64,000 nucleotides of DNA, from positions 1 to 64,000 of the forward strand of contig NZ_JAAORN010000002.1 in the NCBI RefSeq assembly GCF_017695975.1, written 5' to 3'. The position numbers were made by a program, and so were the translations under genes. Of the stretch, positions 29,984-45,518 are shown piece after piece; positions within the stretch are counted from its first letter, which is position 1, and every line of letters starts with the position of its first letter. The notes under the pieces were generated by a model. It saw nothing but the letters and a program-made list of their open reading frames with translations, was not told the DNA's origin and did not search any database. Source of the stretch: Prochlorococcus marinus CUG1417 (GTDB lineage Bacteria > Cyanobacteriota > Cyanobacteriia > PCC-6307 > Cyanobiaceae).

Positions 29984-29990
29984 ATTTTTT

Positions 29991-30716: not shown

Positions 30717-31001
30717 TTAATCATCCTCATCATCCTCATCATCCTCATCATCCTCATCAATACTAGAAGTTATTAAACTCTTTTTTGCAAGGTTTTCAGA
30801 ACCATCATTTATTACTTCTTCGTCAGTTTCTTTAACTGCCTTCTCAATTTCCTTTTGAAACTCTCCAGAAGCTTGTTGCAAGCTTTTCAATGTTTTTCCA
30901 ATTGAACGTCCTAGTTCTGGTAGTTTTTTAGGTCCAAATATTAAAAGAGCTAAAACAAAAATTACAGCAATTTCTGGAATTCCAACACCAAATATATTCA
31001 T
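30717..31001 (-). CDS. tatA: TatA/E twin-arginine translocase subunit
   Basis: Short N-terminal helix (IPEIAVIFVLALLIFGPKKLPELG), amphipathic helix with GRSIGKTLKS, then a charged tail. The tail ends in a run of Asp-Glu-Asp triplets encoded by a 9-bp repeat (30721-30758). It lies 31 bp downstream of phoX, whose product carries a Tat signal, so the two probably form an operon supplying a dedicated pore component. Confidence 0.9.
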   Translation of the reverse strand: MNIFGVGIPEIAVIFVLALLIFGPKKLPELGRSIGKTLKSLQQASGEFQKEIEKAVKETDEEVINDGSENLAKKSLITSSIDEDDEDDEDDEDD

Positions 31002-31032
31002 GTTTTCAGCCTAATTTTTTTGTTTTTATACA

Positions 31033-32841: not shown

Positions 32842-32879
32842 AAGATAAAAGTGATAACTAATTTAAAAATTGTTCTCTA

Positions 32880-32909
32880 GGTTTAAATTGAATATAAGTA
32901 AAGTTTAAA
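32880..32909 (-). promoter_or_regulatory. Pho boxes upstream of phoX
   Basis: On the minus strand tttaaact, cttatatt and tttaaacc begin 11 bp apart. Three consecutive repeats 40-70 bp before the start codon, in the orientation of phoX. Confidence 0.72.
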
Positions 32910-33137
32910 TTTTGATTAGCATTAGTAAATAAAGATACGTAGCTAAAATTTTTTTTATAATTAATTAACATTCAGATTTTTTTAATTAATTTAATCAAAA
33001 ATATTTTTAACTTCCACTTAATAAAATTGCCTTATAAGTTAATTAAAAAAAAAACTTTTGTTATTTTTAAATATTTCTTAATTCAATTCAATTAATCTTG
33101 TATTGTCTCCAATAATGAATCCTTACTAGGAAACCTC

Positions 33138-33749
33138 ATGAAACTTTTTAATAAGAATGAAATGAGAAAAATTTTATTAATTGATGCACATCCTGATAGC
33201 GACAGACTTACCAGTTCTTTAGTAGATGCTTACAAGCGAGGTGCACTTCAAAGTGGATACGACGTAAGAACTATAATCATAAGAGATATGGAATTTAATC
33301 CTAATCTTAAGTTTGGTTATAAGAAGCGCATTAATCTAGAACCCGATCTGCTTATGGCTATTGATGAAATTAAAGCATGTGAGCACATGGTTTGGTTTCA
33401 TCCTGTTTGGTGGGGCAGTTTACCAGCACTTCTAAAAGGATTTATTGATAGAACTTTTCTCCCTTCCATTGTTTTTGATTACAACGAATCGAAGCTTGGC
33501 GGGATGGGATGGGATGGATATCTTGAAGGAAAATCAGCGCGTATTATAGCCACTATGGATACCCCAACTTTCTTGTACCATTGGATTTATAATGCCCCTA
33601 GCGTGAATCAGTTGAAGAAAGCGACGCTTGGATTCTGTGGAGTAAAGCCTGTAAAGGTAACTGAATTTTCTCCGGTAAAAGGCTCCAAACCAAATACTCG
33701 AGATCGATGGATTAAGAAAGTTTTTCAACTAGGACTTAAAGGTAAGTGA
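33138..33749 (+). CDS. NAD(P)H-dependent oxidoreductase, flavodoxin fold, 203 aa
   Basis: KILLIDAHPDSDRLTSSLVDA (FMN-binding loop), MVWFHPVWWGSLPALLKGFIDRTF and TMDTPTFLYHWIY are the usual marks of the KefF/NQO1-like quinone reductases. It probably reduces quinones with two electrons. It stands alone after the phosphate block. Confidence 0.85.
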   Translation: MKLFNKNEMRKILLIDAHPDSDRLTSSLVDAYKRGALQSGYDVRTIIIRDMEFNPNLKFGYKKRINLEPDLLMAIDEIKACEHMVWFHPVWWGSLPALLKGFIDRTFLPSIVFDYNESKLGGMGWDGYLEGKSARIIATMDTPTFLYHWIYNAPSVNQLKKATLGFCGVKPVKVTEFSPVKGSKPNTRDRWIKKVFQLGLKGK

Positions 33750-33916
33750 GAATAATTAAAGTGAAAAGAGTAGAAAGTAAGTTACAAGATTCAGTAAAAG
33801 AATCTTCTATTAGATAAAAAAAGGAAGTGGAGGAGCTTTCTTATTAGTGAAGTAATCACAATTAGGACTAACTCTTTTTAAGTTGTTTTTAAAATATTTT
33901 TTAACTTCATAATAAA

Positions 33917-33956
33917 AGGAGCTTATTTCCCTTATTTTAGATCGACTGTCAATCAA
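33917..33956 (-). promoter_or_regulatory. Palindrome-plus-hairpin leader, copy 1
   Basis: On the minus strand attgacagtcgatctaaaat is followed by an agggaaat-type half hairpin and an ATG at 33907-33909 that opens only a short decayed frame. Same architecture as the leaders of the genes at 34840 and 44496. Confidence 0.5.
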
Positions 33957-34061
33957 TTAATAATTAATTTTTTTATTTAATTTATTTATATTTAACCCAA
34001 TGAAAAGCATCCAAATAATTGCAAAGACTATTGGTAAGAAAACGATAGCAAGTTTAATCAT
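33957..34061 (-). CDS. Single-span membrane peptide, 34 aa (PsbY-like shape)
   Basis: MIKLAIVFLPIVFAIIWMLF then a basic tail. The helix with a P and a W in these positions recalls PsbY, but the similarity is too short to name it. Its stop codon touches leader copy 1. Confidence 0.45.
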   Translation of the reverse strand: MIKLAIVFLPIVFAIIWMLFIGLNINKLNKKINY

Positions 34062-34132
34062 TTTAAAAATAGTTTTATTTGCTAAAAATAATAACCTTTA
34101 AATAAATAACTCAGGATAGGTACTTTATCTAA

Positions 34133-34267
34133 TTAATTAGGTAGTTGATGGGTGGGCGGTGCATGAAACTTTCTTTTCTTTCTCTTTAATCTCTTATAAA
34201 AAACAAATACTCCTAAAACTAATAAAGGCATTAATAAACCTTCTATAAACATTGGAAAGTTAATCAT
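34133..34267 (-). CDS. Single-span membrane protein, 44 aa
   Basis: MINFPMFIEGLLMPLLVLGV, then a strongly basic stretch (YKRLKRKKRKF) and a proline-rich end. The start overlaps the previous gene's stop by eight bases (ATGATTAA). Confidence 0.55.
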   Translation of the reverse strand: MINFPMFIEGLLMPLLVLGVFVFYKRLKRKKRKFHAPPTHQLPN

Positions 34268-34388
34268 ATTCTTTATCCCTATCTACAAGCTCTCTCATAA
34301 ATCTTTTATCTGTTATGTAGTTGTCTACAAGTTCTTGATTGTAACCGTTTTCTCTAATTTCTTTAATGATTTCGTCTAAATTTTCCAT
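34260..34388 (-). CDS. Small charged protein, 42 aa, paralogue of 48501
   Basis: MENLDEIIKEIRENGYNQEL, then YITDKRFM and a DRDKEYD end. The ENGYN-EL-D-YI core and the DR-KEY end recur in the 38-aa protein at 48501. Both are followed, in overlapping frames, by a small membrane protein. Confidence 0.6.
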   Translation of the reverse strand: MENLDEIIKEIRENGYNQELVDNYITDKRFMRELVDRDKEYD

Positions 34389-34737
34389 AATCGTCAACTC
34401 CCATGCGACAGTTTTTAGAGGGAAATAAGCCCAAACAAGCCAGTAATAGAAATATCTAGAGCAAATTAGAGCCTATATACGCATACTTACGAATAAATAA
34501 GAAAAAAGCAAGAATTCCCTCCAGAAATTCAAACCACCAGAGAGGTTATTAAATTGACCCGTACTATATAAGAAAGGTTTTATCCATCCAATTTTAGATC
34601 GACTGTCAATAAATAAAATTATAGATCGAGGGTATATAAACATCATGCAGACTAGCGACCTAAAGGCAAAATGCTAGAAAGAAAATAGTAATCAGTTAGC
34701 CATAAAGTATTTAAATATTTTTTTATTTATTTATCCT
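34389..34737. other. Gene-free stretch with two copies of the leader repeat
   Basis: 34407-34430 is an inverted partial copy (gacagtttttagagggaaat), and 34575-34606 is a further copy (ttttagatcgactgtcaat) in the orientation of copy 1. No coding frame is convincing. The nearest ATG after the second copy does not open a gene, so these may be promoter relics left after gene loss. Confidence 0.5.
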
Positions 34738-34818
34738 TTACTTGTTAATTATTTGGTCAAGGTATTTGGCAAATAATAAAAAACTAACAAACCCAATATT
34801 AATTGCTATGCCGTACAT
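34738..34818 (-). CDS. Possible 26-aa membrane peptide
   Basis: MYGIAINIGFVSFLLFAKYL and a short polar end; only the hydropathy supports it. Confidence 0.25.
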   Translation of the reverse strand: MYGIAINIGFVSFLLFAKYLDQIINK

Positions 34819-34839
34819 ATTCTGACTATTAATTACCAG

Positions 34840-35229
34840 CTAATCCCATAAAGATAAATCTGAATCTCCAGTTGATCTTTGCATCCAATGGATTTTCCAA
34901 ATCCCATTAATCTTTTTGAAGATAGAAGTCACAGTTGGCAAATCATCATTAGGAGTTCCTTTGTAAGAGAATTTTGCCCCAAGAGTAAAAACACACATTG
35001 CTACATCGTCAGAGAGAAATTCAAACTTATGAATTTTTGTAATTTCTGCTTTTTCCTGAACAACATCGCCAGAATTCATCATTTCCTCGAATCCCTTTGC
35101 ATCTATTGGATTCCCACTAGGCCTGATTAGTAAAAAATCTGGAGTAGAATTTTTTACAAAAAATGAGCCCATATTCTGAGGTGTTGCTAACTCATACAAC
35201 ATCGATTCGATTGTTTCTCTATCTGTCAT
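34840..35229 (-). CDS. DUF4440/SnoaL-like protein, 129 aa
   Basis: NTF2-like cone fold: TDRETIESMLYELATPQ, FLLIRPSGNPIDAKGFEEMM, then alternating strands to SIFKKINGIWKIHWMQRS. A small ligand-binding or enzymatic fold with no assignable substrate. Its leader has the shared palindrome and a hairpin ending in T8 right at the ATG. Confidence 0.75.
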   Translation of the reverse strand: MTDRETIESMLYELATPQNMGSFFVKNSTPDFLLIRPSGNPIDAKGFEEMMNSGDVVQEKAEITKIHKFEFLSDDVAMCVFTLGAKFSYKGTPNDDLPTVTSIFKKINGIWKIHWMQRSTGDSDLSLWD

Positions 35230-35230
35230 A

Positions 35231-35277
35231 AAAAAAAGGGTTTTATCCCTCTAAGTTTAGGTCCACTGTCAATCAAT
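35231..35277 (-). promoter_or_regulatory. Palindrome-plus-hairpin leader, DUF4440 gene
   Basis: Minus strand: attgacagtggacc, taaact (possible -10), then agggataaaaccct followed by tttttttt and ATG. The hairpin plus T-run directly before the start could attenuate transcription. Confidence 0.55.
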
Positions 35278-35328
35278 AAATTTATAAATTCAACAATCTA
35301 GTGCTCTTAGGGGCACTATGTTGCTTTT

Positions 35329-35350
35329 GAGAGAGATTTGAGAGAGATTT
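35329..35350 (+). repeat. Perfect 11-bp tandem repeat gagagagattt x2
   Basis: Two exact units, starting 145 bp upstream of the degenerate att copy at 35474. This is the same distance at which the right arm repeat of the intact element starts before attR. It is four bases after a further partial att-like piece (35300-35324). Confidence 0.5.
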
Positions 35351-35473
35351 TGCTTATTCATGCCCAACCTTACTATATCTTTCTACTTTTTTAGACTCAT
35401 AAATTTACTTTTATTGTCAGTTATTTATCGCCTCACTTATTTATTTAGCCTACTGTCGCAAATTGCCTAACGA

Positions 35474-35520
35474 GTTCATTGGGAGTACTAGTTCACAGGT
35501 TCGAATCCTGTCGCTGCGAA
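35474..35520 (+). repeat. Degenerate tRNA-Pro att remnant 1
   Basis: 39 of 47 positions match the att core, including ggttcgaatcctgtcg. The upstream ctgtcgcaaattgc (35453-35466) is identical, at the same spacing, to that before the remnant at 45441. It cannot fold as tRNA. Confidence 0.8.
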
Positions 35521-35541
35521 TCTTAAAAACTAATTCATACT

Positions 35542-35567
35542 AGCGAGGAAACCAGCCTCGCTTTTTT
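35542..35567 (+). terminator. Strong Rho-independent terminator
   Basis: agcgagg-aaacca-gcctcgct followed by six Ts, between the att remnant and the next gene's ATG. Confidence 0.85.
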
Positions 35568-35568
35568 A

Positions 35569-35925
35569 ATGCAAAAAGAAGAACACTCTAATTGTGGTCA
35601 GACAGTGGGCAAATTTATTGACAGCCTATCTAAAATAAAGGGCAATTATCACCTTTTTTCTATGCCTAATACATTAGTTGTCTCTACCTTTGGTTGTCCT
35701 TTTTCTGAATTTGAAATGATGGTAAAAAAAGTCGATAAAGAACAAGGATACGTTTTTTGTTCTGAGCTAGAAATTATCAAAGTAACTGAACATAAAGCAA
35801 TGATTCTTATGAACTGTTCTGATTTAGAAAAGTTTGGTGCAATGCTTGAACAACCAGAATTAAAGCAATGGGATATTGATAACAACTGTGTAGACACAGT
35901 TTATAATCTTGAACTTGTTGAGTAA
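35569..35925 (+). CDS. Hypothetical protein, 118 aa
   Basis: Soluble alpha/beta protein with several Cys (SNCGQTVG, FGCPFSEF, MNCSDLEKF). The C-terminal half (KAMILMNCSDLEKFGAMLEQ, then DNNCVDTVYNLE) resembles small ferredoxin-fold stress proteins such as the DUF3303 and ABM types nearby. ATG is two bases after the terminator's T-run, so transcription must start very close or the terminator acts as an attenuator. Confidence 0.6.
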   Translation: MQKEEHSNCGQTVGKFIDSLSKIKGNYHLFSMPNTLVVSTFGCPFSEFEMMVKKVDKEQGYVFCSELEIIKVTEHKAMILMNCSDLEKFGAMLEQPELKQWDIDNNCVDTVYNLELVE

Positions 35926-36051
35926 ATAAAAGGATTACTACTCCCACTACTAGCTACTATCGCTTTACCTACTGCTGTTAATACTGAGAGTTACAAATCT
36001 GGCTTGGCTAAATTGCAATATAAAAAAATTCCGTTGGGGGAAAATTCTTGA
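35926..36051 (+). pseudogene. Remnant of a small secreted protein
   Basis: Reads GLLLPLLATIALPTAVNTES, an intact signal-peptide end, then YKSGLAKLQYKKIPLG and a stop, but has no start codon. Next to it, 36052-36245 holds nothing recognisable. Confidence 0.45.
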
Positions 36052-36245
36052 AGATTTATTTTGAGAGGCGATAAGGAGTTGGCATATAGATAGTAAGGTG
36101 GCTAATTAAAAATTTTACTTTTAGCCAATTTTTATAATGGAACTTATATAGGTCCACCATCTAATTTTTAAGATTGCTTCGAAGTTAGAGTAAATTCACT
36201 AAGACGTTCTGTAATCAAGCGAATATTCGGGCTAAAAAGTTATCT

Positions 36246-36386
36246 TCACTCCTTAGCAAACTCAAGCTTAAACAAATACTTTTCACCATCATCATTATCA
36301 TCGTCATCATCATTGAAAGAGGCGATCAAAACATAAACGCCTCCCAGCCCAAGGATCATTGATAAGTAAAGAATAGGATCAGTCAT
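36246..36386 (-). CDS. Acidic single-span membrane protein, 46 aa
   Basis: One helix (LYLSMILGLGGVYVLIASF), a run of Asp/Asn residues, then a charged end. Small stress-island gene of unknown role. Confidence 0.5.
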   Translation of the reverse strand: MTDPILYLSMILGLGGVYVLIASFNDDDDDNDDGEKYLFKLEFAKE

Positions 36387-36603
36387 TATTTAATTTTGAT
36401 CAATCAAAAACAAATCCGGGGAAGCTTTTTCATATCTCCATGATCTTTTAATTATTAACTTCAACTTTAAAAATAAATTACTTACTGTTACGTATCTGTA
36501 TCAGAATTGCCATAATAGTACTGAATTACACATATTTTTAACCTTTTTCTTTACATTAGTTAATAAGAATGTTACGTTTGTTAACAATTAAATTATTTAA
36601 CTT

Positions 36604-36813
36604 ATGACTAATTCTTCATACATAACTACAGAATCAGGCGGAAGGCAAAATATTTTCCCAACTGAGCCTCGTCCTTATGTTGATCAATCTGTTTCTTATG
36701 ATGGATACCCTCAAAACGCAGAAAAAGTTAATGGTCGTTGGGCAATGATTGGTTTAATTGCACTTTTGGGAGCTTATGTAACTACAGGTCAAATAATTCC
36801 AGGTATTTTTTAA
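36604..36813 (+). CDS. hli: High-light-inducible protein
   Basis: 69 aa with the chlorophyll-binding helix motif EKVNGRWAMIGLIALLGAYV and the terminal GQIIPGIF. Hlips bind chlorophyll and carotenoid and protect photosystems under high light or stress. It overlaps the next hli by one base (TAATG). Nearly duplicated at 57367. Confidence 0.92.
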   Translation: MTNSSYITTESGGRQNIFPTEPRPYVDQSVSYDGYPQNAEKVNGRWAMIGLIALLGAYVTTGQIIPGIF

Positions 36814-37073
36814 TGTCTCCTCTTTCAGGCTTTTTGGTTGTAATCGTATCCTTAACAGCTACACTCGTTGCTTATCTAACCAAGCAATTTCAAAACGAAA
36901 ATTTAAACTATCTACCTTCAAATCCAATGAAAAATTCAAACCCTAAAGTAAAAACAATCGAGAAAGAAAAAGTTGTTGCAGAAACTCTTAATGGCAGATT
37001 CGCAATGCTTGGATTAATTGCTGCTTTAGGAGCTTACTTAACAACAGGCCAGATAATTCCAGGTTTCGTTTAA
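36813..37073 (+). CDS. hli: High-light-inducible protein with extra N-terminal helix
   Basis: 86 aa: an N-terminal hydrophobic helix (FLVVIVSLTATLVAYL), a charged linker, then ETLNGRFAMLGLIAALGAYL and GQIIPGFV. Two helices rather than the single Hlip span. It is the second gene of the cassette, read directly into the next gene. Confidence 0.9.
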   Translation: MSPLSGFLVVIVSLTATLVAYLTKQFQNENLNYLPSNPMKNSNPKVKTIEKEKVVAETLNGRFAMLGLIAALGAYLTTGQIIPGFV

Positions 37074-37304
37074 ATGCTTTTACTCTCTGTACCATTTTAC
37101 GATTTTCCATCTTCGCCCATACTAATAATTGGCGCGATAGGGATTGTTGTAGCACTAGCTGTATTTTTTCTAGCTTACAAAAAGTACTTTAATTCTCCAT
37201 TTAACAAAGAACTTCAATTAAAGAAAAAAGCTTTATTGAAGGAGAAAACAGAACTTAACAAAAAACTTGAGAAAATAGAGCAAGATTTAAAAAATTTATC
37301 GTGA
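37074..37304 (+). CDS. Membrane protein with C-terminal coiled coil, 76 aa
   Basis: One helix (LIIGAIGIVVALAVFFLAY) and a long Lys/Glu coil (LKKKALLKEKTELNKKLEKI). The ATG directly follows the hli stop codon. Probably a cassette partner, perhaps tethering Hlips. Confidence 0.7.
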   Translation: MLLLSVPFYDFPSSPILIIGAIGIVVALAVFFLAYKKYFNSPFNKELQLKKKALLKEKTELNKKLEKIEQDLKNLS

Positions 37305-37399
37305 AATCCATGAACATTGACATTTTCCTAATTTCTTTTTTTACTTATCTCTTAGTACCAGTAGTGATGATCGCTAAAGGGAAAAAAGCAACTAACTAA
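37301..37399 (+). CDS. Tiny membrane peptide, 29-32 aa
   Basis: GTG 37301 overlaps the preceding TGA (GTGA), and ATG 37310 is the alternative start. A single helix (IFLISFFTYLLVPVVMIA) and KGKKATN. Last gene of the hli cassette. Confidence 0.5.
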   Translation: MKSMNIDIFLISFFTYLLVPVVMIAKGKKATN

Positions 37400-37495
37400 A
37401 AAAGATTTAGGCTCCCAAAAATAAGAATTTAAACTCTATTCAATACTTACAAAGTCGTTATAGAGTCTTCAGATAAGTTTAAGGAGGGTAATCTT

Positions 37496-37654
37496 ATGAC
37501 CAACCTCGCTATCGAGCTACTGTTCTTGACTTTAGTTTTAGTAAATTTTGGAGCAATCCTTACAGCTAATATCTACTCAAAATCAGTAAAGGAATTTAGA
37601 CGTAATAGATTATTTTGCAGTAAGTCTTTCAGTAATCCTTATTGCATTATCTGA
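37496..37654 (+). CDS. Small membrane protein, 52 aa
   Basis: Strong ribosome-binding site (aaggaggg). Helix IELLFLTLVLVNFGAILTAN, then a basic Cys-containing tail. Another frame over the last 80 bases also reads as a hydrophobic helix (YFAVSLSVILIALSD), so a frameshift is possible. Confidence 0.5.
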   Translation: MTNLAIELLFLTLVLVNFGAILTANIYSKSVKEFRRNRLFCSKSFSNPYCII

Positions 37655-38060
37655 TAAAAATTTGCTTCATTAAGCACTATGTCGTAAGCAGGCGACAAAC
37701 CGTCAAGGATTTGGATACCTAAGGCTATTTTGTATATCTTAGGCAAATTTTTGAGACTAACAATTTCTTAGGTATTCCAACGAAATTGTCATATCCTTAT
37801 TCGTTTACTTAGCAGACTTTCTCAAATTGGAGTGCGGGTGCTTTGGTAGAACTAGGTGGCAGGTTCGAATCATTCACCCCGATCAGTTATCGCGTTAAGT
37901 CTCAGCTAATAATAAATTACACCAAAAAATCTGTACCCAAAATGCAGCCAAAAGAATAAACTTTTAAAAAATGCGTTCTTAAAATATTAAGTCTGTTCGA
38001 ATAAGCTCATTTATAAATTCTCACTTAAGAAAATGATGATAACATTAAGAAAAAATTTTA
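37655..38060. other. Gene-free stretch with att remnant
   Basis: Holds the inverted pair ggatacctaag/cttaggtattcc (37718-37728, 37769-37780), a weak att-like piece at 37671-37692 and the clear remnant at 37838. No coding frame. Confidence 0.5.
37838..37883 (+). repeat. Degenerate tRNA-Pro att remnant 2
   Basis: One base shorter than the core, with gtgctttgg, actaggtggcaggttcgaat and accccgat conserved. The preceding agtgcggg still matches the tRNA D-stem, so more of the tRNA is retained here than in other remnants. Flank cagttat...aagtctcagctaata follows. Confidence 0.8.
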
Positions 38061-38735
38061 ATGAAAAAACTACTGCTTACAACTCCTATATTATTAACTT
38101 CTTTATCAGCTCCATTACTAGCAGAAGAATTAAAAAATATTTATTTATCTGTTGGAGGAGGTATAGCCTCCCCAAGTGATGTAGAAGGTGATACTACTCT
38201 TGGCGGGACTAAATATGATGCAACCTTTCCTACCGATAATACTGGTTTCTATTCGGCAGCAATAGGAAAAAAATTCAATGATTTCAGGATTGAATTTAAC
38301 TATTCTCGAGCAGATGTTGAGACTGATTCAATAACACTAACTACTGGAGGGAATGGAGTAACAGCTTCAATCTCGCCAAACTTAGAAGCAGAAGTAAAAA
38401 GTTACATGTTTTATGGGTACAAAGACCTCCCAAACGAATCAAAATTCACTCCATATATCGGATTAGGCTTAGGTTCTTCAACTTTTTCTGCAAAAGATCA
38501 AACAGCAACAGTTTCTGGAACCAGGTATAGTTTAAAAGGTACTGAAGAGTCTGTATTCTCATATGCTGTAAAAGGCGGTGCTGACTATGAAATATCAGAT
38601 AATACTTCATTATATTCAGAAGTTACGTATCAAAAATTTGCCTCATACAACGTTACAGATCCTGGTTATGAAACAGTCAATTATGACTCGAATAACTTAT
38701 TCGCTGTTTCTTTAGGTTTAAAATTTAATTTCTAA
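38061..38735 (+). CDS. Outer-membrane beta-barrel protein (opacity/OmpW-like), 224 aa
   Basis: Signal peptide (MKKLLLTTPILLTSLSAPLLA), then an eight-strand-like barrel: NIYLSVGGGIASPSD, FRIEFNYSRAD, TPYIGLGLGSSTFS and the C-terminal strand LFAVSLGLKFNF ending in F. Small barrels of this type may alter phage or grazer recognition. It fills the whole segment between two att remnants, so it is probably imported cargo. Confidence 0.82.
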   Translation: MKKLLLTTPILLTSLSAPLLAEELKNIYLSVGGGIASPSDVEGDTTLGGTKYDATFPTDNTGFYSAAIGKKFNDFRIEFNYSRADVETDSITLTTGGNGVTASISPNLEAEVKSYMFYGYKDLPNESKFTPYIGLGLGSSTFSAKDQTATVSGTRYSLKGTEESVFSYAVKGGADYEISDNTSLYSEVTYQKFASYNVTDPGYETVNYDSNNLFAVSLGLKFNF

Positions 38736-38740
38736 ATTTT

Positions 38741-38760
38741 CACCTAAAATACACCTAAAA
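38741..38760 (+). repeat. Tandem cacctaaaa repeat
   Basis: cacctaaaa-ta-cacctaaaa, 11-bp period, 107 bp upstream of att remnant 3. Same layout as the arm repeats of the intact element but different sequence. Confidence 0.5.
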
Positions 38761-38847
38761 GTGATAATTTGATTCTGATTTAGTCGATTTTCTAATCAGC
38801 AATGCTTGTTATGAGTATAAGTCTCAGTTAAATCTTTGTTTTAGCTA

Positions 38848-38893
38848 GTGTTTAGGAGCACTAGGTTGCAGGTTCGAATCCTCTCGTCCTGAT
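38848..38893 (+). repeat. Degenerate tRNA-Pro att remnant 3
   Basis: gtgtttaggagcactaggtt and gcaggttcgaatcctctcg survive. The downstream cagttataacagtaagtctc is nearly identical to the flanks of remnants 2, 5 and 6. Confidence 0.8.
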
Positions 38894-39055
38894 TCAGTTA
38901 TAACAGTAAGTCTCAGCTAATAGATTCTCCCTCAAAAAAGCTTTCCTTCGTATTTACGAAAAAAAGTAATTAGTTGAAATAGTATTAAAAATTTTGTAAT
39001 TATATGAATAATCTGGGTTTATCATATACATTTGAATTTTTAAACAATTTTGCAG

Positions 39056-40939
39056 ATGATTAATAATTATTCCAAAGGAAAATATAAGTCAGAACTAGAT
39101 GGTTTGAGAGCAATTGCATTGATAGCGGTTATCGCAAATCACTTTAATGAAAAATTTTTAGAAAGTGGTTTCTTGGGAGTGGATATGTTTTTTGTTATTT
39201 CTGGTTATGTTATTTCTTATTCAACAGAAACAAAGATAAACAATCTTATAAATATTCCTAGCTTTTTCATTGATTTTTATTGGCGAAGAATTATTCGTTT
39301 AATACCAGCCTTAATTTTATATGTATTTACTATTAGTATTTTATTATCGTTATTTAATCCTGCACCCGATAGATTCATCTTTTCTGGGATAACATCCCTT
39401 TTCGGAGTATCAAACTTATATTTTTTAAATCAATCCACTGATTATTTTGCAAGCAATGTTGAATTTAATCCATTTCTTCAAACATGGTCGCTAGGGGTTG
39501 AACAACAGTTTTATATTTTTTTCCCTTTTATAATTTTATTTTCAGGTTATTTAAAAAAAACAAAAAATGCTCGTAAAAATTTATTATCATTTAACTTAAT
39601 CTTATTTTCAATCTCATTTTTTCTTTATCTTTACTTAAGTAATAATAATCAAAGTGCTTCGTACTTTTTGATGCCCGCTCGATTTTGGGAAATTTCAGCG
39701 GGATCAATACTCTTCATAAACTCGCAAAGAAATAAAAATTTTTTTAGAAATTTTGATAAAATTCCCTCTTTATTAATAATCTCTCTTATCGTTATTACCT
39801 TTAAATTTTCAACTAATTATATTGTCATATCAACAGTAATTATTGTATTTTTGACCACTACTCTCATTAATTGTTTAGAAGAAGGTGATATTGCTTATAA
39901 ACTACTTTCTCTAAAAGTACTAAAATTTGTTGGAAAAACTTCCTATTCATTTTATCTTTGGCATTGGGGAGTACTGACTATAAGCAAATGGACTATAGGA
40001 ATTTTTTGGTGGACTATACCTCTACAGATCATCTTAATTTTAATAATTGGAATTGCTTCTAATAAATTAATTGAGGATCCAATAAGAAAAAGTGATTTCT
40101 TTAAAAAAGGGTTTAAATCATTTTTAATTGTTTTTTCATCAGTAATAATAACTATTTTAATTTTAATTACCGGAATCTATACTTCATTTAAAAAAATATT
40201 GTACAGAGGAAGTGAAACTGATTTTGGCACCTTTAATTATCCCAAAGAAGGCTACTATAAGAATAAAAAAAATTCATCAGGCAATAAATTAATTGTAATT
40301 GGAGATAGTTTTGCAGGGCATTTATTAACTCTATTTAAGGAACTTTCAGATGAATATAATTATAGTTTGTACCTTCATACTAATAGGAATGGTTTTAAGA
40401 AAGATTTAAGTAAAGAGGGTAATTATAAATACCTTTATTATTCATTAAAAGATTATTCTTCAAGTTTAAAAAATAATGATATTTTGATTATTAATTTAGG
40501 GCAGATAGATGAATTAAAATTAAAATCAAAGCAACAGGATCTTCTTAATCTGACAAATCTTATTGATGATTTAAATATAAAAACAGTATTTATTGGTCCA
40601 ACTCCAAGATTTAGAGAGGGCTTGTATACAATTTGTTCTGAGGAATGGTTTAGACCATATTTTTCTATAAGAAAAGAATGTTCACCCACACCTAGAGTAA
40701 AGATCAAAGATGATTTGCTTTTCTATAGCACTTTCTTGAAAAATCTATCTAGCAAAAGCACTAATATATATTTTTTTAAAGCTTTTTCTATACTTTGCCC
40801 AGATCAAGTTAAATACTGTCCCTTAAAAAATGAACTAGGACATATCTATTATGATGAACATCATTTAACGACTAATGGGTCTTTGTTATTAAAGGATGAA
40901 TTAATAAACTTTTTAATTATGAATAAAATACTAAAATAA
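39056..40939 (+). CDS. OafA/YrhL-type acyltransferase with SGNH domain
   Basis: Acyltransferase-3 domain: ELDGLRAIALIAVIANHF, GVDMFFVISGYVIS, FYWRRIIRLIPALIL and WSLGVEQQFYIFFP, with about ten helices. It is followed from about residue 400 by an SGNH hydrolase-like domain (LIVIGDSFAGHLL and the D-x-x-H pair in YYDEHHLTTNGS). It O-acetylates surface polysaccharide or LPS. ATG 39056 preferred over a TTG two codons earlier. It lies alone between att remnants 3 and 4, as cargo that would change the cell surface. Confidence 0.9.
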   Translation: MINNYSKGKYKSELDGLRAIALIAVIANHFNEKFLESGFLGVDMFFVISGYVISYSTETKINNLINIPSFFIDFYWRRIIRLIPALILYVFTISILLSLFNPAPDRFIFSGITSLFGVSNLYFLNQSTDYFASNVEFNPFLQTWSLGVEQQFYIFFPFIILFSGYLKKTKNARKNLLSFNLILFSISFFLYLYLSNNNQSASYFLMPARFWEISAGSILFINSQRNKNFFRNFDKIPSLLIISLIVITFKFSTNYIVISTVIIVFLTTTLINCLEEGDIAYKLLSLKVLKFVGKTSYSFYLWHWGVLTISKWTIGIFWWTIPLQIILILIIGIASNKLIEDPIRKSDFFKKGFKSFLIVFSSVIITILILITGIYTSFKKILYRGSETDFGTFNYPKEGYYKNKKNSSGNKLIVIGDSFAGHLLTLFKELSDEYNYSLYLHTNRNGFKKDLSKEGNYKYLYYSLKDYSSSLKNNDILIINLGQIDELKLKSKQQDLLNLTNLIDDLNIKTVFIGPTPRFREGLYTICSEEWFRPYFSIRKECSPTPRVKIKDDLLFYSTFLKNLSSKSTNIYFFKAFSILCPDQVKYCPLKNELGHIYYDEHHLTTNGSLLLKDELINFLIMNKILK

Positions 40940-40949
40940 TCTTATTCTG

Positions 40950-40977
40950 ATAACTTCAAATAGAAGTTATTTTTTTA
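40950..40977 (+). terminator. Rho-independent terminator
   Basis: ataacttc-aaata-gaagttat followed by ttttttatt, just after the acyltransferase stop. Confidence 0.85.
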
Positions 40978-41006
40978 TTTAATCTAGGTTTTTAATTAGA
41001 AGGCCG

Positions 41007-41053
41007 GTTCTTTGGAAGCACTAGGTCGCAGGTTCGAATCCTGGCGCCTCGAA
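41007..41053 (+). repeat. Degenerate tRNA-Pro att remnant 4
   Basis: 42 of 47 positions match the att core, the best of the decayed copies (agcactaggtcgcaggttcg intact). The remaining gene-free DNA to 41457 holds a small inverted repeat taggaa/ttccta (41072-41086) and otherwise nothing recognisable. Confidence 0.85.
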
Positions 41054-41457
41054 TCTAATAATTCATTACATAGGAAGGTTTCCTAACATATCTTTTTTAT
41101 TGGGTAGAAAATGAAATCAAACCTTTGATATCATTTTGATGTCAAATTGACCTATTAAGGAAGTTGCGTTACCTATAGCATCTTTCAGAAACTCACTAAA
41201 TAAATCATTAGAAGTTTAATTCAATTAATTATTATAAAATTTGTTTTTTCTAATATTAATAGAGCAAGTTTTTTCCTAAATTAATTTAATTCACAGTAGA
41301 TCTTGTATTAAATTTTCTCTAATTCATCCTTATTAATCTATAAGTATCAAAAAATTCATAATAATAAAATTTTATACAAACATAAATTTTATTAGAATCA
41401 CCTAATTTTTTTAAGGACACTTAGAATTATCTATTAACTTATTTGCAAAATCTTCAA

Positions 41458-42174
41458 ATGATAAATAAATCCTATAAATTATTTACCTTACTTATTTTAA
41501 GTACGATTATCGTACACATCTCAGCATGGGTATTAAATTATAAATTAGGTTCATTTCTAGATATTTCACCAGATATAGATAAATTTTATAACATGCTATA
41601 TCCAGCTAAAGATGGAGGATATTTTGAACATTTTCAGTACATATTGTTACTGTGGTGTTCATTATTATCTTTCATTTGGATCTTTACAAGAAAAAAGATT
41701 GAAGCATTATCAATTCCATTAGTTTACTTATATTTATTTTTTGATGATTCCCTCCGATTGCATGATCAATTAACTGGAAACTTCTTAGTAAAGTTTATAG
41801 TGGAGCATCAATTTTTCGAACAAGATATTGTTAGGAATAAAGATATTTCAGAATGGTTGTACTGGTTATTTATTTTAATAGTCTCATTAATAATTTCTAT
41901 TCCTGGTTTTAAAAGCTCTTCATTTGAAGTAAGACAATTCTTGAAGCATAATTATATTTTATTTTTAGTTTTGTCATTCTTCGGTGCATTTATTGATTTA
42001 TTGAATGCAAACCTAAATACATTGTTGCCACCCTTTTCGCAAAGTCCGATATTAATCGAGATTTTAATATTTATTGAGGAATTAGGAGAAATATTAACCA
42101 TTGCCTTTATGTGCATTTGGTTATTCAAAATTGTTATGGATAATAAACCAAGTAAAAAGAAATTACTCTTCTAA
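41458..42174 (+). CDS. Polytopic membrane protein, 238 aa
   Basis: About six helices. After the first lies a D-G-x-x-E-x-x-Q motif (AKDGGYFEHFQYILLL), then LFFDDSLRLHDQLTG at a membrane edge. The plan resembles the protein at 1127, although identity is low. Start at ATG 41458 (MINKSYKLF). Sole gene between att remnants 4 and 5; function unknown. Confidence 0.7.
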   Translation: MINKSYKLFTLLILSTIIVHISAWVLNYKLGSFLDISPDIDKFYNMLYPAKDGGYFEHFQYILLLWCSLLSFIWIFTRKKIEALSIPLVYLYLFFDDSLRLHDQLTGNFLVKFIVEHQFFEQDIVRNKDISEWLYWLFILIVSLIISIPGFKSSSFEVRQFLKHNYILFLVLSFFGAFIDLLNANLNTLLPPFSQSPILIEILIFIEELGEILTIAFMCIWLFKIVMDNKPSKKKLLF

Positions 42175-42621
42175 TACTCATAATTAAATTAATTTCTAGT
42201 AGTCTTATGAACAAATAATCTAAGAAAAAGGCTTCTTACGCAGTTCTGAGTATTTTGAAGTGAACCCAGGTGCAAACTCAAATTGGTTTACAAAATTTTC
42301 CAATTATGTATTTCTACATTTCATTAGGTAACCTCAGAATAATAAGGTATTTTTTTCTCAGGGAAAGTTTCTAATATTATTGTTCAGAGCGACTTAATAA
42401 AAAAAAAGGTTTATATAAGAACGATTCTTGCAGTTTAGAAGTAAATAAAAAAATTCTCTAGAGGATTTATTTCAAAATCAAGTTTTTTTCATTTACGTTG
42501 TATTAAATATAAGCCAATAAAATAAACAACAAATACTAATAAGTTCGTCATGCCAAACCCTACGATACCCCGCAACTATTTAGTCTGGATTGTAGTCATG
42601 TTGCTCTGCCAGACTAGTAAA
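42175..42621. other. Gene-free stretch before att remnant 5
   Basis: Only a 20-codon hydrophobic frame on the minus strand (42490-42552) and AT-rich runs. Nothing convincing. Confidence 0.4.
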
Positions 42622-42667
42622 GTGCTTCGTAAGCAATGATCCAAGTTTCAAATCCTCTCGCCCCGAT
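42622..42667 (+). repeat. Degenerate tRNA-Pro att remnant 5
   Basis: Most decayed clear copy: gtgctt, caaatcctctcgccccgatt conserved. The flank cagttat..gaagtctta and the cttataaaactttcc region match those after remnant 3 and show common origin. A tttccctaata/tttccccaaat pair with an 11-bp period follows at 42717. Confidence 0.7.
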
Positions 42668-42781
42668 TCAGTTATGGGAGGAAGTCTTAGTCAATAATAA
42701 TTGGCCCTTATAAAACTTTCCCTAATATTTCCCCAAATATAAAGAATAAATATTTGAGATTTTGACCATACACCTTCAAAT

Positions 42782-43477
42782 CTACTTATATTCAAATAAA
42801 AGCTCTCTATTAATGGAATCTTTTGTTTTATCCCAATTTTTATAAACAGTTTTCCATGCTTTCACTGTTTCTTTACCAATCTCATTAATTCTTAGACCTG
42901 TGGAACCATAACTAGAAATCATAATAAATGCCTTCCCATTTATAATTGGATAGTCTGCTAAAGAATTAGCCACAATTTTATTAACATCAAAAACACCATC
43001 ACATCCATTTACAACAATATAGCTTCCATCATTTGTTAATAAACCTAAGGAGGTGACATCATTTGAGCCTGTTGTTGATCTTCCTCCTAATCTTCCCTGG
43101 AAAATAGATTGTTCAGAGATTCTTATTTCGCTACGCCCGAAAAAAGATGCGACTCTAAAAGTTTTATTATAGTTTCTATCAAATACTGCTAATGTCTCTC
43201 CTTTAATTGGATTTTCAATTATTAAAGGTTCTGACAATGGGAATTCATCACTATCTAGTCCTTGTGTTCTCCAGTCTTCATCAATAATAAATCTTTGTAT
43301 ATTTGGGAATTTTCCATCTAGTTTTGTCTTTTTTATTTTTATGTATTCTTCTCTTCTTGTAGGACTACATAAACCCATATCGTTTTCCTTCCCAAATATT
43401 TCCGGACCAGTTTCATAAGCAAACGATAAAGGAATTATTGATTGCAAAGCAATTAAAGCTAATAATTTAATTTTCAT
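42782..43477 (-). CDS. Secreted hypothetical protein, 231 aa
   Basis: Signal peptide (MKIKLLALIALQSIIPLSFA), then a mostly beta protein with GLCSPTRREEYIKIKK, SIFQGRLGGRSTTGSNDV and VVNGCDGVFDVNKIV. Two Cys could form a disulfide. No family recognised. Probably periplasmic cargo between remnants 5 and 6. Confidence 0.65.
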   Translation of the reverse strand: MKIKLLALIALQSIIPLSFAYETGPEIFGKENDMGLCSPTRREEYIKIKKTKLDGKFPNIQRFIIDEDWRTQGLDSDEFPLSEPLIIENPIKGETLAVFDRNYNKTFRVASFFGRSEIRISEQSIFQGRLGGRSTTGSNDVTSLGLLTNDGSYIVVNGCDGVFDVNKIVANSLADYPIINGKAFIMISSYGSTGLRINEIGKETVKAWKTVYKNWDKTKDSINRELLFEYK

Positions 43478-43640
43478 TGAGCAAAAATATTTAGAAAAAT
43501 TATAAATAAACTACTGTGGTTAATTTTGTATAAATTAATATGATTCAATTATTGAAATTTAATTTTTCAAAATTTTAAATTCTGAGTTAAGAAAAATAAT
43601 ACCCTGATATTCCTCTCAAATTTCTAATATTTAATTCAAA

Positions 43641-43787
43641 ATGGCGCAGATTAAATACCTTACATTACCTAATGAAACAGTAGGTCTTAATTATAGCTTC
43701 GTTTTAGCGAGTTATATAGACTCTCTTTTTTTATTACCAACTATAAGAAAGTTAAGGTTTAGCGATTATTTACCATTCCTTGCATAA
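43641..43787 (+). CDS. Small hypothetical protein, 48 aa
   Basis: MAQIKYLTLPNETVGLNYSF, a moderately hydrophobic middle and a basic-aromatic end (IRKLRFSDYLPFLA). Supported by composition only. Confidence 0.4.
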   Translation: MAQIKYLTLPNETVGLNYSFVLASYIDSLFLLPTIRKLRFSDYLPFLA

Positions 43788-43822
43788 AACCTCACTCCCA
43801 CAATAGCTTTAATAAATACAAT

Positions 43823-43993
43823 TTAGTAATGATAAAAAGGCACTTCCTCAACTTGTTTTAGAGAATAGTCACATATACCGAACTGCATACATTCCATTTG
43901 GGAGTCACTTAATTTCCTTTCAAATGAAATCGCATCAAAAAAATAATTAAAAGCATTTTGGAACTTATGTTTAATAGGATTTCCGCAAGTCAT
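43823..43993 (-). CDS. Small Cys-containing hypothetical protein, 56 aa
   Basis: Perfect ribosome-binding site (aaggaggt, seven bases before ATG). MTCGNPIKHKFQNAFNYFFD and SQMECMQFGICDYS. General size and Cys pattern recall the protein at 13376. Unknown function. Confidence 0.6.
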   Translation of the reverse strand: MTCGNPIKHKFQNAFNYFFDAISFERKLSDSQMECMQFGICDYSLKQVEEVPFYHY

Positions 43994-44181
43994 AATTAAC
44001 CTCCTTCGATATGGAAGTTTTTAGTATCACTTATTCTTAAAATCAAGAGTTAAAATACCTAAAGTAAAATTATCAATTTAATCAGTTTTTAATATTTCAC
44101 TATCTTTATAAAGAGTATTTTTGCTCTAGGAAATTTTAATCATTACATCTAACTTAGTTCTACTGATTGAGGTTTTACTTC

Positions 44182-44289
44182 ATGAGCACTTACAAAACGA
44201 AATACTTCAAAAATACAAAAAATCTCGACAACACACTTTGGTTAGACAAATTAATTAATCAACTCGAGAAAAAAGCCAAAGGGGGTTAA
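44182..44289 (+). CDS. Small protein, 35 aa, paralogue of 48358
   Basis: MSTYKTKYFKNTKNLDNTLW, then LDKLINQLEKK. The YFK-N-x-WLD-LINQ-E core is repeated in the protein at 48358. ATG follows a weak GA-rich site. Confidence 0.55.
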   Translation: MSTYKTKYFKNTKNLDNTLWLDKLINQLEKKAKGG

Positions 44290-44292
44290 TTT

Positions 44293-44463
44293 ATGAATAC
44301 GTTCAGGAACAAACAATTCAAAAACGAATTAGATCCAAAGTATGCGTTTTATGATTGTCTCCGAAGTTGCGAACTTAAAAGTTCTTCTGAAAAAACTTTA
44401 GAAGAAGGCAAGGACAGTTGTGATTGGGAACCCTCGTCAGATGATATAGATTTCTGGAATTAA
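44293..44463 (+). CDS. Small acidic protein, 56 aa
   Basis: Three bases after the previous stop, so same operon. Three Cys (FYDCLRSCELK, DSCDWEP) and an acidic-aromatic end (DDIDFWN). No family recognised. Confidence 0.55.
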   Translation: MNTFRNKQFKNELDPKYAFYDCLRSCELKSSSEKTLEEGKDSCDWEPSSDDIDFWN

Positions 44464-44467
44464 ATAA

Positions 44468-44500
44468 TGTTAATTCCTCTTTTTTAGATCAACTGTCAAT
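44468..44500 (-). promoter_or_regulatory. Palindrome leader copy (orphan)
   Basis: Minus strand attgacagttgatctaaaaa then gaggaatt. It overlaps the stop codon of the ABM-like gene and is followed by no minus-strand gene, so it may be a relic or may drive an antisense or small RNA. Confidence 0.45.
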
Positions 44501-44804
44501 CATGATAACCCACTTTAGAAACAATACTACCTGAAACAGGATCAGTTACTCCAAGTTCGGGAGACAACTCTTCCATAAATCCTCTAACCTCATTAAGATG
44601 AGCAATCATAGCTGGTCTTTGAGCTGCAATAGCTTCTTCACTTTTCCAGATACCAACAAAACAGTAATCATAATTACCAGTTTTAGCGATATATCTTTGA
44701 GTCATCCCCTCAAAACTTGTTTTATCTATTATTTCAAAATACTTATTTACACAATCTGACTTTAATTTAAATCGAACAACATTCATAAAATTTCGAGAAG
44801 TCAT
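44496..44804 (-). CDS. ABM-like (antibiotic monooxygenase fold) protein, 102 aa
   Basis: Dimeric ferredoxin-like fold: FMNVVRFKLKSDCVNKYFEI, GNYDYCFVGIWKSEEAIAAQ and a C-terminal ELGVTDPVSGSIV. Related folds act on quinones or reactive carbonyls or are stress proteins; substrate unknown. Leader with perfect palindrome upstream. Confidence 0.72.
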   Translation of the reverse strand: MTSRNFMNVVRFKLKSDCVNKYFEIIDKTSFEGMTQRYIAKTGNYDYCFVGIWKSEEAIAAQRPAMIAHLNEVRGFMEELSPELGVTDPVSGSIVSKVGYHD

Positions 44805-44806
44805 AA

Positions 44807-44848
44807 AATAAGAGGGATTTACTCCCTCTAATATAGATTGACTTTCAA
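44807..44848 (-). promoter_or_regulatory. Palindrome-plus-hairpin leader, ABM-like gene
   Basis: Minus strand: attgaaagtcaat (perfect 5-3-5 palindrome), tatatt (possible -10), agaggga-gtaaa-tccctct hairpin, then tattttATG. The best preserved member of the leader family. Confidence 0.6.
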
Positions 44849-44889
44849 TAACTAACTTTTAGAGATGCGAATAGTTTGAGTTTTAGTTG

Positions 44890-45195
44890 TTAATCACAAC
44901 AACTTTCTTTTGTTAATGAAGCAGTCCAAGAGGATTCTTCCATTGTTAACAAGTCAACTCTATGAGTTGCCATCCAGTCACCATTTGCCTCCACAAACTT
45001 TTGAACATTACCTTCTGGCGCTTGATGAATAACAATAATTTTTTGAGGATCTTTTTTGCTTACTCCTCTGAAAATAGGCTTAATATCAAATTCAGAATGC
45101 CTTTTATTAGCTTCTGCACTATCAAATATTGCAGCCCATTCATCGAAAGTGCTTTCAATTTTAAAAGTAAACACGGAGGTAACTAAGCAAGACAT
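44890..45195 (-). CDS. DUF3764 protein, 101 aa
   Basis: TFKIESTFDEWAAIFDSAEA, then FDIKPIFRGVSKKDPQKIIV and IHQAPEGNVQKFVEANG are the DUF3764 pattern, a picocyanobacterial ferredoxin-fold family. It ends with two Cys (KESCCD). A partial leader motif (tctaaaataagggtgaatta) precedes the ATG. Confidence 0.8.
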   Translation of the reverse strand: MSCLVTSVFTFKIESTFDEWAAIFDSAEANKRHSEFDIKPIFRGVSKKDPQKIIVIHQAPEGNVQKFVEANGDWMATHRVDLLTMEESSWTASLTKESCCD

Positions 45196-45518
45196 AAGAA
45201 AAGAGATAATTCACCCTTATTTTAGAAAGAAAATCTTTATGAACCACCTTAAATTAATATGACGTAGTGCTCTATATGCACTAGCACCAGGTTATGGTTT
45301 TCCGATTATTTGCATACATATGCAATGCATTGCTGCATGTTGGAGCAATAATATTGAGACTCAATTAAATCCTAATTGTCCCAACTTATAAGCTATAAAC
45401 CATCTTATTTTTGAAGAGTCTGTCGCAAATTGCGTACTTGGTGCTTTGGGAGTACAAAGTCACAGGTTCAAATCCTGACGCCCCGATTAAGCTATAGCAG
45501 TAAGTCTCAGCTAATAAC
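45196..45518. other. Gene-free stretch with att remnants
   Basis: Contains a second weak att-like piece (45264-45304), a perfect palindrome gcaatgcattgc (45322-45333) about 110 bp before the clear att remnant, and that remnant itself. No gene. Confidence 0.5.
45441..45487 (+). repeat. Degenerate tRNA-Pro att remnant 6
   Basis: 41 of 47 positions match the core. The upstream ctgtcgcaaattgc (45420-45433) is shared with remnant 1 at identical spacing; the downstream agtaagtctcagctaataac is shared with remnants 2 and 3. Confidence 0.85.

Follow-up and report, generated by a model that had tools for sequence, protein, structure and literature searches.

A probable layered array of site-specific insertions at a Prochlorococcus tRNA-Pro gene, with cassettes mostly lacking a detected recombinase

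The window analyzed here, 64,000 nt of Prochlorococcus marinus CUG1417, contains a tRNA-Pro(UGG) gene followed downstream by seven same-strand copies of its 3'-terminal 47 nt (Table 1). Besides one near-intact copy (attR), six copies had been listed in the original prediction, at positions that agree with our ungapped core starts to within 2 nt; as claimed, they share the orientation of the tRNA and lie some 32–42 kb away (31.6–41.6 kb from the tRNA copy). They match the core at 27–43 of 47 positions, the best reaching 43 rather than the predicted maximum of 42, and the weakest aligns to the core with indels. A chance origin was ruled out: with the 40-nt 3' end as the probe, the six scored 26–37, compared with 21 for the highest-scoring position elsewhere on the two strands. 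In a search of the genome with a 90-nt query, for which the copy at 42620 is too weak, every match with E < 0.01 fell inside this window.

Table 1. Features of the tRNA-Pro locus in the window (att starts are those of the ungapped 47-nt core; L and R denote left and right end classes)
Feature	Position	Strand	Evidence or remarks
Decayed copy of tRNA promoter region and 5' half, scar of mirror-image class	2559..2633 (approximate)	+	nhmmer 33.0 bits, E 1.6e-8; BLAST 2545-2614
Single ORF, 297 aa, between mirror scar and tRNA; putative 5'-side cassette	2747..3640	+	
tRNA-Pro(UGG), attachment gene	3810..3883	+	ARAGORN, Rfam
Unit 0, recombinase-bearing element, 9 kb	3884..12942		L3/R0
HupE/UreJ family cargo gene	4050..4754	-	PF04955
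Second, short tyrosine recombinase, 212 aa	6619..7257	+	phrog_216, phrog_1; PF00589
AAA_25 ATPase	7770..9845	-	PF13481; DNA helicase phrog_6012 E 4e-5
Divergent tyrosine recombinase, 454 aa	11411..12775	-	phrog_216 E 0.003
att copy 1 (attR)	12941..12987	+	46/47
Phosphate/arsenate gene cluster unit, 22.5 kb	12988..35474		L4/R0; possibly composite
att copy 2	35473..35519	+	39/47
Unit 2: ORF 35569-35925, ORFs 36604-37073, ORF 37074-37304	35520..37838	+	L0/R0
att copy 3	37837..37882	+	36/47 ungapped
Unit 3: one outer-membrane beta-barrel gene 38061-38735	37883..38848	+	L1/R2; PF13505
att copy 4	38846..38892	+	37/47
Unit 4: one acyltransferase-SGNH gene 39050-40939	38893..41007	+	L1/unclassified; PF01757, PF19040
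att copy 5	41006..41052	+	43/47
Unit 5: one ORF 41443-42174, hydrophobic by eye	41053..42622	+	L0/R1
att copy 6	42620..42666	+	27/47 ungapped, with indels
Unit 6: ORFs 42782-43477, 44496-44804, 44890-45195 (DUF3764)	42667..45441	-	L1/R0
att copy 7, last copy detected	45440..45486	+	41/47

The unit next to the tRNA contains hupE cargo, a short integrase, an AAA_25 protein that may be replication-like, an HTH protein and a divergent tyrosine recombinase, with 117 bp separating the end of its stop-to-stop frame from attR to the right. A Pfam search found no family in this 454-aa protein, so PF00589 can miss such enzymes. Its identity as a tyrosine recombinase is suggested by weak family matches, homology and residues: the Arg of GLRP, the Arg of FRH, the His of MGH and a Tyr are invariant in nine aligned homologues, the window's own included. 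In other genomes, homologues likewise adjoin att. A phage origin was not borne out, as the protein matched none of 50,697 phage records and viral contigs yielded no confirmed relative; two exact att-plus-left-end patterns also gave nothing in viral contigs, which is weak evidence because the patterns were exact.

The phosphate unit has a left end as in recombinase-bearing elements and a right end that is not theirs. It may have lost its integration module, or this may be an established form, because a phosphate unit in genome G047 has the same end classes. Farther out, the prediction that one gene often lies between scars is true of three of the five intervals, whereas each of the remaining two contains three ORFs of 75 aa or more; with mechanical ORF calling, exactly one such ORF was present in 73 of 172 set 1 intervals shorter than 6 kb (sets defined below). 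ORFs 36604-37073 of unit 2 had weak chlorophyll-binding matches and may be high-light-inducible-like. Unit 3 has an 87.6% nucleotide match in G053 that begins at att, and the Pfam search found no family in the ORF of unit 5. The end pairing of unit 6 is unusual, and this unit is possibly composite. On the 5' side of the tRNA, the single ORF of the putative mirror-image cassette had a methyltransferase match below the Pfam cut-off.

We compared the window with other Prochlorococcus genomes: set 1 comprised 26 genomes including the window's, and set 2 a further 18. The additional genomes in both sets (25 and 18) were hand-picked on the basis of completeness, length of the contig or a large number of copies and are non-random. 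The tRNA pattern was missing in six of 48 genomes, among them G024, which was retained for its copies. Set 1 held 222 copies including the tRNA genes, of which 215 were in tRNA orientation; the other seven were all in G044 and were excluded from unit and decay analyses. Ends were sorted into recurring families, those with fewer than three members being left unclassified; the families of set 1 also served to classify the ends in set 2, and set 2 units shorter than 200 nt were dropped. The downstream flank that had been noted for four of the six remnants (the second, third, fifth and sixth) is real and represents one of several left-end families; the flank after attR, described as a version of it, is related but belongs to a different family, L4.

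Among the 189 set 1 intervals, 151 had both ends in recurring families, and 140 of these 151 showed one of six pairings. Left and right ends were matched inside units (mutual information 0.89 bits vs 0.11, SD 0.03) and independent across an att (0.14 vs 0.11, p 0.21), and set 2 gave the same picture (inside units 0.67 vs 0.17, SD 0.05; across att 0.09, p 0.71). The stretches between copies thus behave as discrete insertions. A terminator-like hairpin occurred in 100 of 112 L0 left ends, compared with 34 of 1560 random 56-mers and none among 58 from four other left-end families. Copy number rose with the distance from the tRNA to selO (rho 0.64, p 0.004; 18 genomes with selO in the fetched stretch).

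Homologous units start and stop at copies. Set 1 contained 50 homologous unit pairs between genomes. At the median, alignments began 46 nt ahead of the unit (49 pairs) and ran on for 45 nt after it (45 pairs), which places both edges at the outer limits of the flanking 44-nt cores. Seven pairs were at the same rank; 47 pairs were testable for neighbors, and none of these had a common neighbor (0 of 68 neighbor comparisons homologous). Gene content therefore changes at the scars, as had been predicted, and stable content between strains, which would speak for a conserved repeat unrelated to att, was not found. More than half of the pairs (28 of 50) came from one cluster of eight units, all in the deeper half of their arrays; it may represent one old insertion passed on by inheritance, around which the neighbors have turned over. 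End class differed in 19 of the 50 pairs, so ends have in part been swapped or misclassified.

The copies also decay with distance from the tRNA. In set 1, mean rho was −0.74 (21 genomes, 180 copies; permutation SD 0.08), with G013, G014, G048, G062 and G066 left out for having fewer than four copies besides the tRNA. In set 2, stretches of about 20 kb gave no significant trend (−0.25, null SD 0.195, six genomes), and the extended stretches gave rho −0.29 (nine genomes, 82 copies, p 0.004); G066 entered once extended, the run was made without G045, G063, G142 and G186, and seven others in it had fewer than four copies. Combined, mean rho was −0.60 over 30 genomes and negative in 26, the trend being weaker in set 2. 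Within the window it is weak (rho −0.33), and well-kept copies deep in some arrays (G066, G078 and G146) run counter to it. Overall, the better-kept scars tend to lie near the tRNA, as would be expected of arrays that run from young to old.

Recombinases were rare and consistently placed. Detection covered homologues of the 454-aa recombinase and PF00589 only, and on this basis a recombinase was present in 10 of the 189 set 1 units (nine full length and one truncated, in G024) and undetected in the remaining 179. The homologue was absent from 16 of the 26 regions, inside a unit in nine and just upstream of the tRNA in G013; the full-length genes in units and the one in G013 are all on the minus strand, 96–174 bp left of an att or tRNA copy. 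In G040, a recombinase fragment of 90 residues lies directly beside a copy in partial decay; it was not counted among the 10. Most recombinase-free units look, from their ends, like complete, non-autonomous cassettes: 145 of the 179 have both family ends. As a general rule, the predicted loss of integration modules with retention of cargo is not supported, but it may fit some cases such as the phosphate unit and the G040 fragment.

We interpret the region, with a probability of about 0.82, as an array built up in layers by site-specific insertion at tRNA-Pro, with cassettes that mostly carry no detected recombinase. Each element would bring the 3' part of the tRNA in its left end; insertion into the anticodon stem-loop would rebuild a working tRNA, and the displaced 3' piece would become a scar at the far end. 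As new elements would enter at the intact tRNA, those near it would be young and those far from it old, which would explain why the scars decay with depth. A few elements carry the divergent recombinase next to the right end, and most, at 1–3 kb with few genes and the same kinds of ends, would probably be moved in trans by larger ones, whose enzyme they would borrow since no insertion enzyme was found in most of them. In favor of such a helper–passenger link, G014 has a 1.38-kb module-free unit, with 44/44 copies on either side, whose hupE cargo and two ends are those of the window's 9-kb element; deletion or gain of a module would each fit this pair. The mirror-image class would enter from the 5' side and supply the promoter region and 5' half. 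What the sequences show directly are the att copies, the matched ends, unit boundaries at att, the change of context, the decay trend and where and how rarely the recombinase occurs; entry at the tRNA, this recombinase as catalyst, mobilization in trans, excision and a route between cells are what we infer from these patterns. The fossil record of serial insertions at one tRNA that had been proposed is supported by the change of content at scars, the decay and the matched ends. If the layered-array reading is right, flexible genes beside tRNA-Pro arrived as successive small cassettes whose order the scars record, a strain-by-strain reconstruction of acquisition histories (e.g., for phosphate genes) would be possible, and a helper–passenger relation is predicted between recombinase-bearing elements and small cassettes.

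Every interval might instead be what is left of a complete element that brought its own recombinase and later lost it while keeping the cargo. The phosphate unit, with a recombinase-class left end lacking the matching right end, fits this account, as do the fragment in G040 and the truncated gene in G024. However, a recombinase was detected in none of 129 units of the four main end classes, and of 91 intervals flanked by well-kept copies (43/44 or better on each side), 83 had no detected recombinase, 77 of these 83 retaining both family ends. Whole module-free units also recur in different genomes without common neighbors, and we regard general remnant status as improbable.

Following uptake of DNA, cassettes might be shuffled mainly by homologous recombination between att repeats and common ends, and less often be inserted site-specifically; such shuffling is compatible with a layered array. 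It would account for the 19 of 50 pairs with differing end classes and for hupE, which has an L3 left end in the window and G014 and L0 over the first 50–60 nt in G049. It would, however, predict weak end matching and no relation between decay and depth, both contradicted in the data, and the common end homology is short, with coverage dropping to interior level some 125 nt inward of the left end and 250 nt inward of the right. As the main process, shuffling is unlikely. That the copies are a dispersed tRNA-derived repeat (retro-copied or an RNA-gene family) unrelated to insertion might be suggested by the many short tRNA-like copies of uniform length, but it was ruled out with near certainty by the single locus and strand of own-genome copies with E < 0.01, the homologous blocks ending at copies and the ends matched within units.

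Tycheposons, reportedly described by Hackl et al. (2023, Cell), are an obvious comparison for an array in this genus, and Coleman et al. (2006) are said to have noted a repeated 48-bp tRNA-Pro piece in MIT9312. The published work cited below by PMC number is represented by excerpts, and on these the systems closest in kind are tycheposons, CIMEs and the Dehalococcoides ssrA islands; among titles and abstract openings we found none on matched ends or decay order at tRNA-Pro, and we claim no priority. The 9-kb element and the L4/R3 elements fit tycheposons in genus, tRNA gene at the border, cargo and tyrosine recombinase, and 9 kb lies within the 4–200 kb given for tycheposons (cited second-hand in PMC10872708). 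In contrast, most units here have no recombinase found and lie mostly below that range (156 of 189 set 1 units < 4 kb); because a recombinase was undetected in 179 of 189 units, we do not class the small cassettes with tycheposons.

The Dehalococcoides islands are similarly in tandem at one RNA gene, split by 3'-end repeats, and 15 of 31 have no integration module and were proposed to be possibly cis-mobilizable (PMC3146451). They differ in using a serine recombinase and tmRNA rather than a tyrosine recombinase and tRNA-Pro, and the apparently small units, matched end families and two-sided insertion distinguish the array here. CIMEs, which have attL and attR, no integration genes and stack at one site, resemble the att-flanked units here (considering only the recombinase) but are described as decayed elements (PMC5704250), whereas here intact module-free units recur from genome to genome, pointing to movement in trans; the 0 of 68 common neighbors of shared units speaks against CIME-like joint transfer. 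Additive flexible genomic islands also vary by cassette addition (PMC5217437), and those of Methylophilaceae have 20-bp tRNA-Lys repeats, likewise tRNA-end repeats (PMC10872708), but end families, decay order and recombinase position are not described in those excerpts. Multiple partial tRNA copies inside a Prochlorococcus island had already been noted, with a 36-bp piece present five times in MIT9313 alongside five pseudo-tRNA-Met (PMC2784084), although no unit structure is derived in that excerpt.

Integron cassette arrays and CALINs resemble the array in their small cassettes between recombination sites, some without their own recombinase (PMC11389934), whereas the sites here are tRNA-derived and recombinase genes lie inside some mobile units. 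Whether Prochlorococcus has a functionally comparable system, with a tRNA dock, matched-end cassettes of one to a few genes that do without their own recombinase and are moved in trans by recombinase-bearing elements already resident or newly arriving, entry from both sides of the anticodon stem-loop restoring promoter or terminator, and an ordered, roughly datable record of acquired genes, those for phosphate stress among them, we consider an even bet. The integron feature of an integrase at a fixed platform beside the dock was not found here; a distant chromosomal recombinase is possible. PF00589 matches occur elsewhere in the chromosome in all 26 set 1 genomes, and one of these proteins, rather than the array recombinase, could be the catalyst. 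Within the fetched set 1 regions, the located PF00589 places (G000, G077, G078 and G171) were all in units already counted.

In the window, seven copies of the tRNA-Pro 3' end lie downstream of the tRNA, all on its strand. The original prediction had read six of them as scars of serial insertions that lost their integration modules and kept their cargo, and these six copies are real, reaching 26-37 on the 40-nt 3' end against 21 at the best other place; all matches with E < 0.01 in the strain's own genome fall inside the window. Of the 266 genomes from the genus, 240 match the tRNA 3' end with its flank (about three places were scored per genome; this is not a copy count, and the tRNA itself can match). 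Outside the genus but within its family, more than one perfect copy on a contig occurs in some genomes (e.g., G339). We compared two hand-chosen, non-random sets: set 1, the window and 25 fetched regions, and set 2, 18 more. Set 1 contained 222 copies (tRNA genes counted), 215 of them in tRNA orientation and spaced at a median of 2.0 kb (interquartile range 1.3-3.2 kb; n = 189). The other seven were all in one genome, G044 (L080-L081), where the middle copies are well kept and the outer ones more decayed; an inversion within the array may account for them.

Features of the tRNA-Pro array and other elements in the window
Feature	Position (nt)	Strand	Matches or content
Mirror-class copy (tRNA 5' side)	~2559-2633		
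tRNA-Pro(UGG)	3810-3883		
9-kb element	3884-12942		hupE, short integrase, AAA_25 ATPase, HTH protein, recombinase
20-nt stretch, left	3936-3955		identical to right stretch
Short tyrosine recombinase	6619-7257		
Long recombinase	11411-12775		454 aa
20-nt stretch, right	12797-12816		identical to left stretch
att copy (tRNA last 47 nt)	12941	as tRNA	46/47
Phosphate/arsenate gene cluster, one att-bounded unit	12988-35474		
att copy	35473	as tRNA	39/47
att copy	37837	as tRNA	36/47
att copy	38846	as tRNA	37/47
att copy	41006	as tRNA	43/47
att copy	42620	as tRNA	27/47
att copy	45440	as tRNA	41/47
Glutamine-II riboswitch	51687-51749	-	
Yfr19 RNA	58251-58331	-	

The flanks immediately right and left of the copies group into few families, and both ends belonged to a family of at least three members in 151 of the 189 units (stretches between consecutive copies) of set 1. 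Left and right ends were tightly paired within units (mutual information 0.89 bits; shuffles 0.11, SD 0.03, maximum 0.25), whereas flanks across a copy were unrelated (0.14 versus 0.11, p = 0.21, n = 131). Set 2 (53 units, of which 39 had both ends assigned to a family) behaved likewise, with 0.67 versus 0.17 within units (SD 0.05, maximum 0.48) and no relation across copies (0.09, p = 0.71). This indicates that the stretch between two copies mostly acts as a single insertion. In the left-end family L0, a hairpin followed by T5 was present in 100 of 112 members, which are related to one another and thus not independent, compared with 34 of 1560 random 56-mers and none of the 58 left ends that belong to four other families; L0 elements would thereby supply a terminator for the rebuilt tRNA.

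Homologous units have their boundaries at the copies. For the 50 homologous pairs between different genomes of set 1 (at least 60% of both interiors covered; 12 clusters, 35 units), alignments were read if anchored no more than 60 nt from the unit ends. The median start was 46 nt before the unit (49 pairs) and the median stop 45 nt beyond it (45 pairs), which is where the 44-nt cores have their outer edges; 4 of 49 overran by more than 20 nt on the left, and 0 of 45 extended over 60 nt beyond the core to the right. By the same coverage measure, neighbors were homologous in 0 of 68 comparisons (47 pairs testable on at least one side), and seven pairs had the same rank. A single cluster of eight units contributed 28 of the 50 pairs; it lies in the deeper half of every array concerned, and may therefore be an old insertion whose neighbors have since been replaced. 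The window's beta-barrel cassette matches that of G053 at 87.6% (37838 to 38949), from the first base of the left copy to 57 nt beyond the right copy, a stretch in which the next left end belongs to the same family in both genomes; the flanking copies in G053 match at 44/44 and 43/44.

Entry of new elements at the tRNA would be expected to leave older scars farther away and more decayed. In set 1 genomes with at least four copies, order and identity were negatively correlated (mean Spearman's rho = −0.74; 21 genomes, 180 copies; permutation mean 0.00, SD 0.08). In set 2, mostly covering the first 20 kb, the correlation was not significant (rho = −0.25; 6 genomes, 37 copies); after extension it was −0.29 (p = 0.004; 9 genomes, one from set 1; 82 copies). 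Pooling all 30 genomes gave −0.60, with negative values in 26; the window alone is a weak example (−0.33). Additionally, more copies accompanied a larger tRNA-to-selO distance (rho = 0.64, p = 0.004; 18 genomes with selO in the fetched stretch).

Homologs of the window's long recombinase were found in 10 of 189 set 1 units; nine are full length, and the one in G024 is truncated. A further one lies directly upstream of the tRNA in G013, and tblastn detected a 90-residue fragment adjoining a copy in G040. All full-length recombinases are on the minus strand, 96-174 bp left of att (in G013, of the tRNA copy), and nine aligned homologs keep the GLRP arginine, the FRH arginine, the MGH histidine, and one tyrosine. 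Two Prochlorococcus genomes encode relatives at 92-93% identity, on which the assignment of the window to this genus is based. This homolog search detected no recombinase in 145 of the 151 set 1 units with two family ends, nor in any of the 129 units in the four main end classes. PF00589 proteins are encoded elsewhere in all 26 set 1 genomes and could serve as alternative catalysts. Unlike the long recombinase, the short one in the 9-kb element matches PF00589 strongly.

Both end classes of the 9-kb element also occur on module-free units of 1.30 kb (G003) and 1.38 kb (G014), with identities of 96/100 and 92/98 at the left end and 88/113 and 97/120 at the right. The hupE gene of the 9-kb element is also present in the G014 unit (left 1.2 kb, 96%; right 212 nt, 86%). 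In G049, hupE occurs with a similar right end, but the first 50-60 nt there are L0-like. Cargo and ends thus occur both with and without the module, and either form could be the earlier. The identical 20-nt stretches within both ends of the 9-kb element are possible recombinase arm sites.

The predicted loss of an integration module may fit the phosphate unit, which encodes a GAPDH, an MFS transporter, a chromate transporter, a PstS-like binding protein, a porin, a phytase-like protein, a histidine kinase, and PhoX. It shares 338 nt of its left end (98.5%) with the phosphate elements that carry a recombinase in G041 and G066, and lacks their right end. However, the G047 phosphate unit has the same end classes, and its right end aligns with that of the window (80% over 164 nt), so the window's unit may instead be an older, established form. 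The cluster is absent from many fetched genomes; in others it is flanked by two copies, at varying rank, or, in G042, by a 5'-side scar on one side and a copy on the other. Single genes can deviate from this pattern: G046 and G173 have porin-like genes (43-45% identity) upstream of the tRNA, and in G024, whose tRNA is outside the stretch, pstS is to the left of the first copy. Elsewhere the cluster is either full or a 4.3-kb GAPDH-MFS-pstS version.

A mirror class, comprising the tRNA promoter region and 5' half, was represented by 13 copies in 10 of 21 upstream stretches (3.9 to 20 kb). In the three genomes with two such copies, the more distant copy has the lower score; the difference is clear in G183 and G003 and marginal in G142. 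The 3' and 5' classes overlap solely around the anticodon stem-loop, which would place the crossover there. The 5'-side elements of G042 (L141-L142), G045 (L143-L144), and G063 (L147) share a starting junction; in G042 and G045, about 27.7 kb separate the tRNA 5' half from the full tRNA, and in G042 this stretch includes the phosphate cluster.

Coleman 2006 reportedly described tRNA-end repeats in Prochlorococcus islands. Such repeats are already published (PMC2784084), and tycheposons, as described second-hand (PMC10872708), are known elements close in kind to those of the tRNA-Pro array. Tandem islands without integration modules are described for Dehalococcoides ssrA (PMC3146451) and as CIMEs (PMC5704250). 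The combination of matched-end, mostly recombinase-free cassettes, decay order, and two-sided entry was not found in the part of the literature covered. The window also contains a Glutamine-II riboswitch and a Yfr19 RNA.
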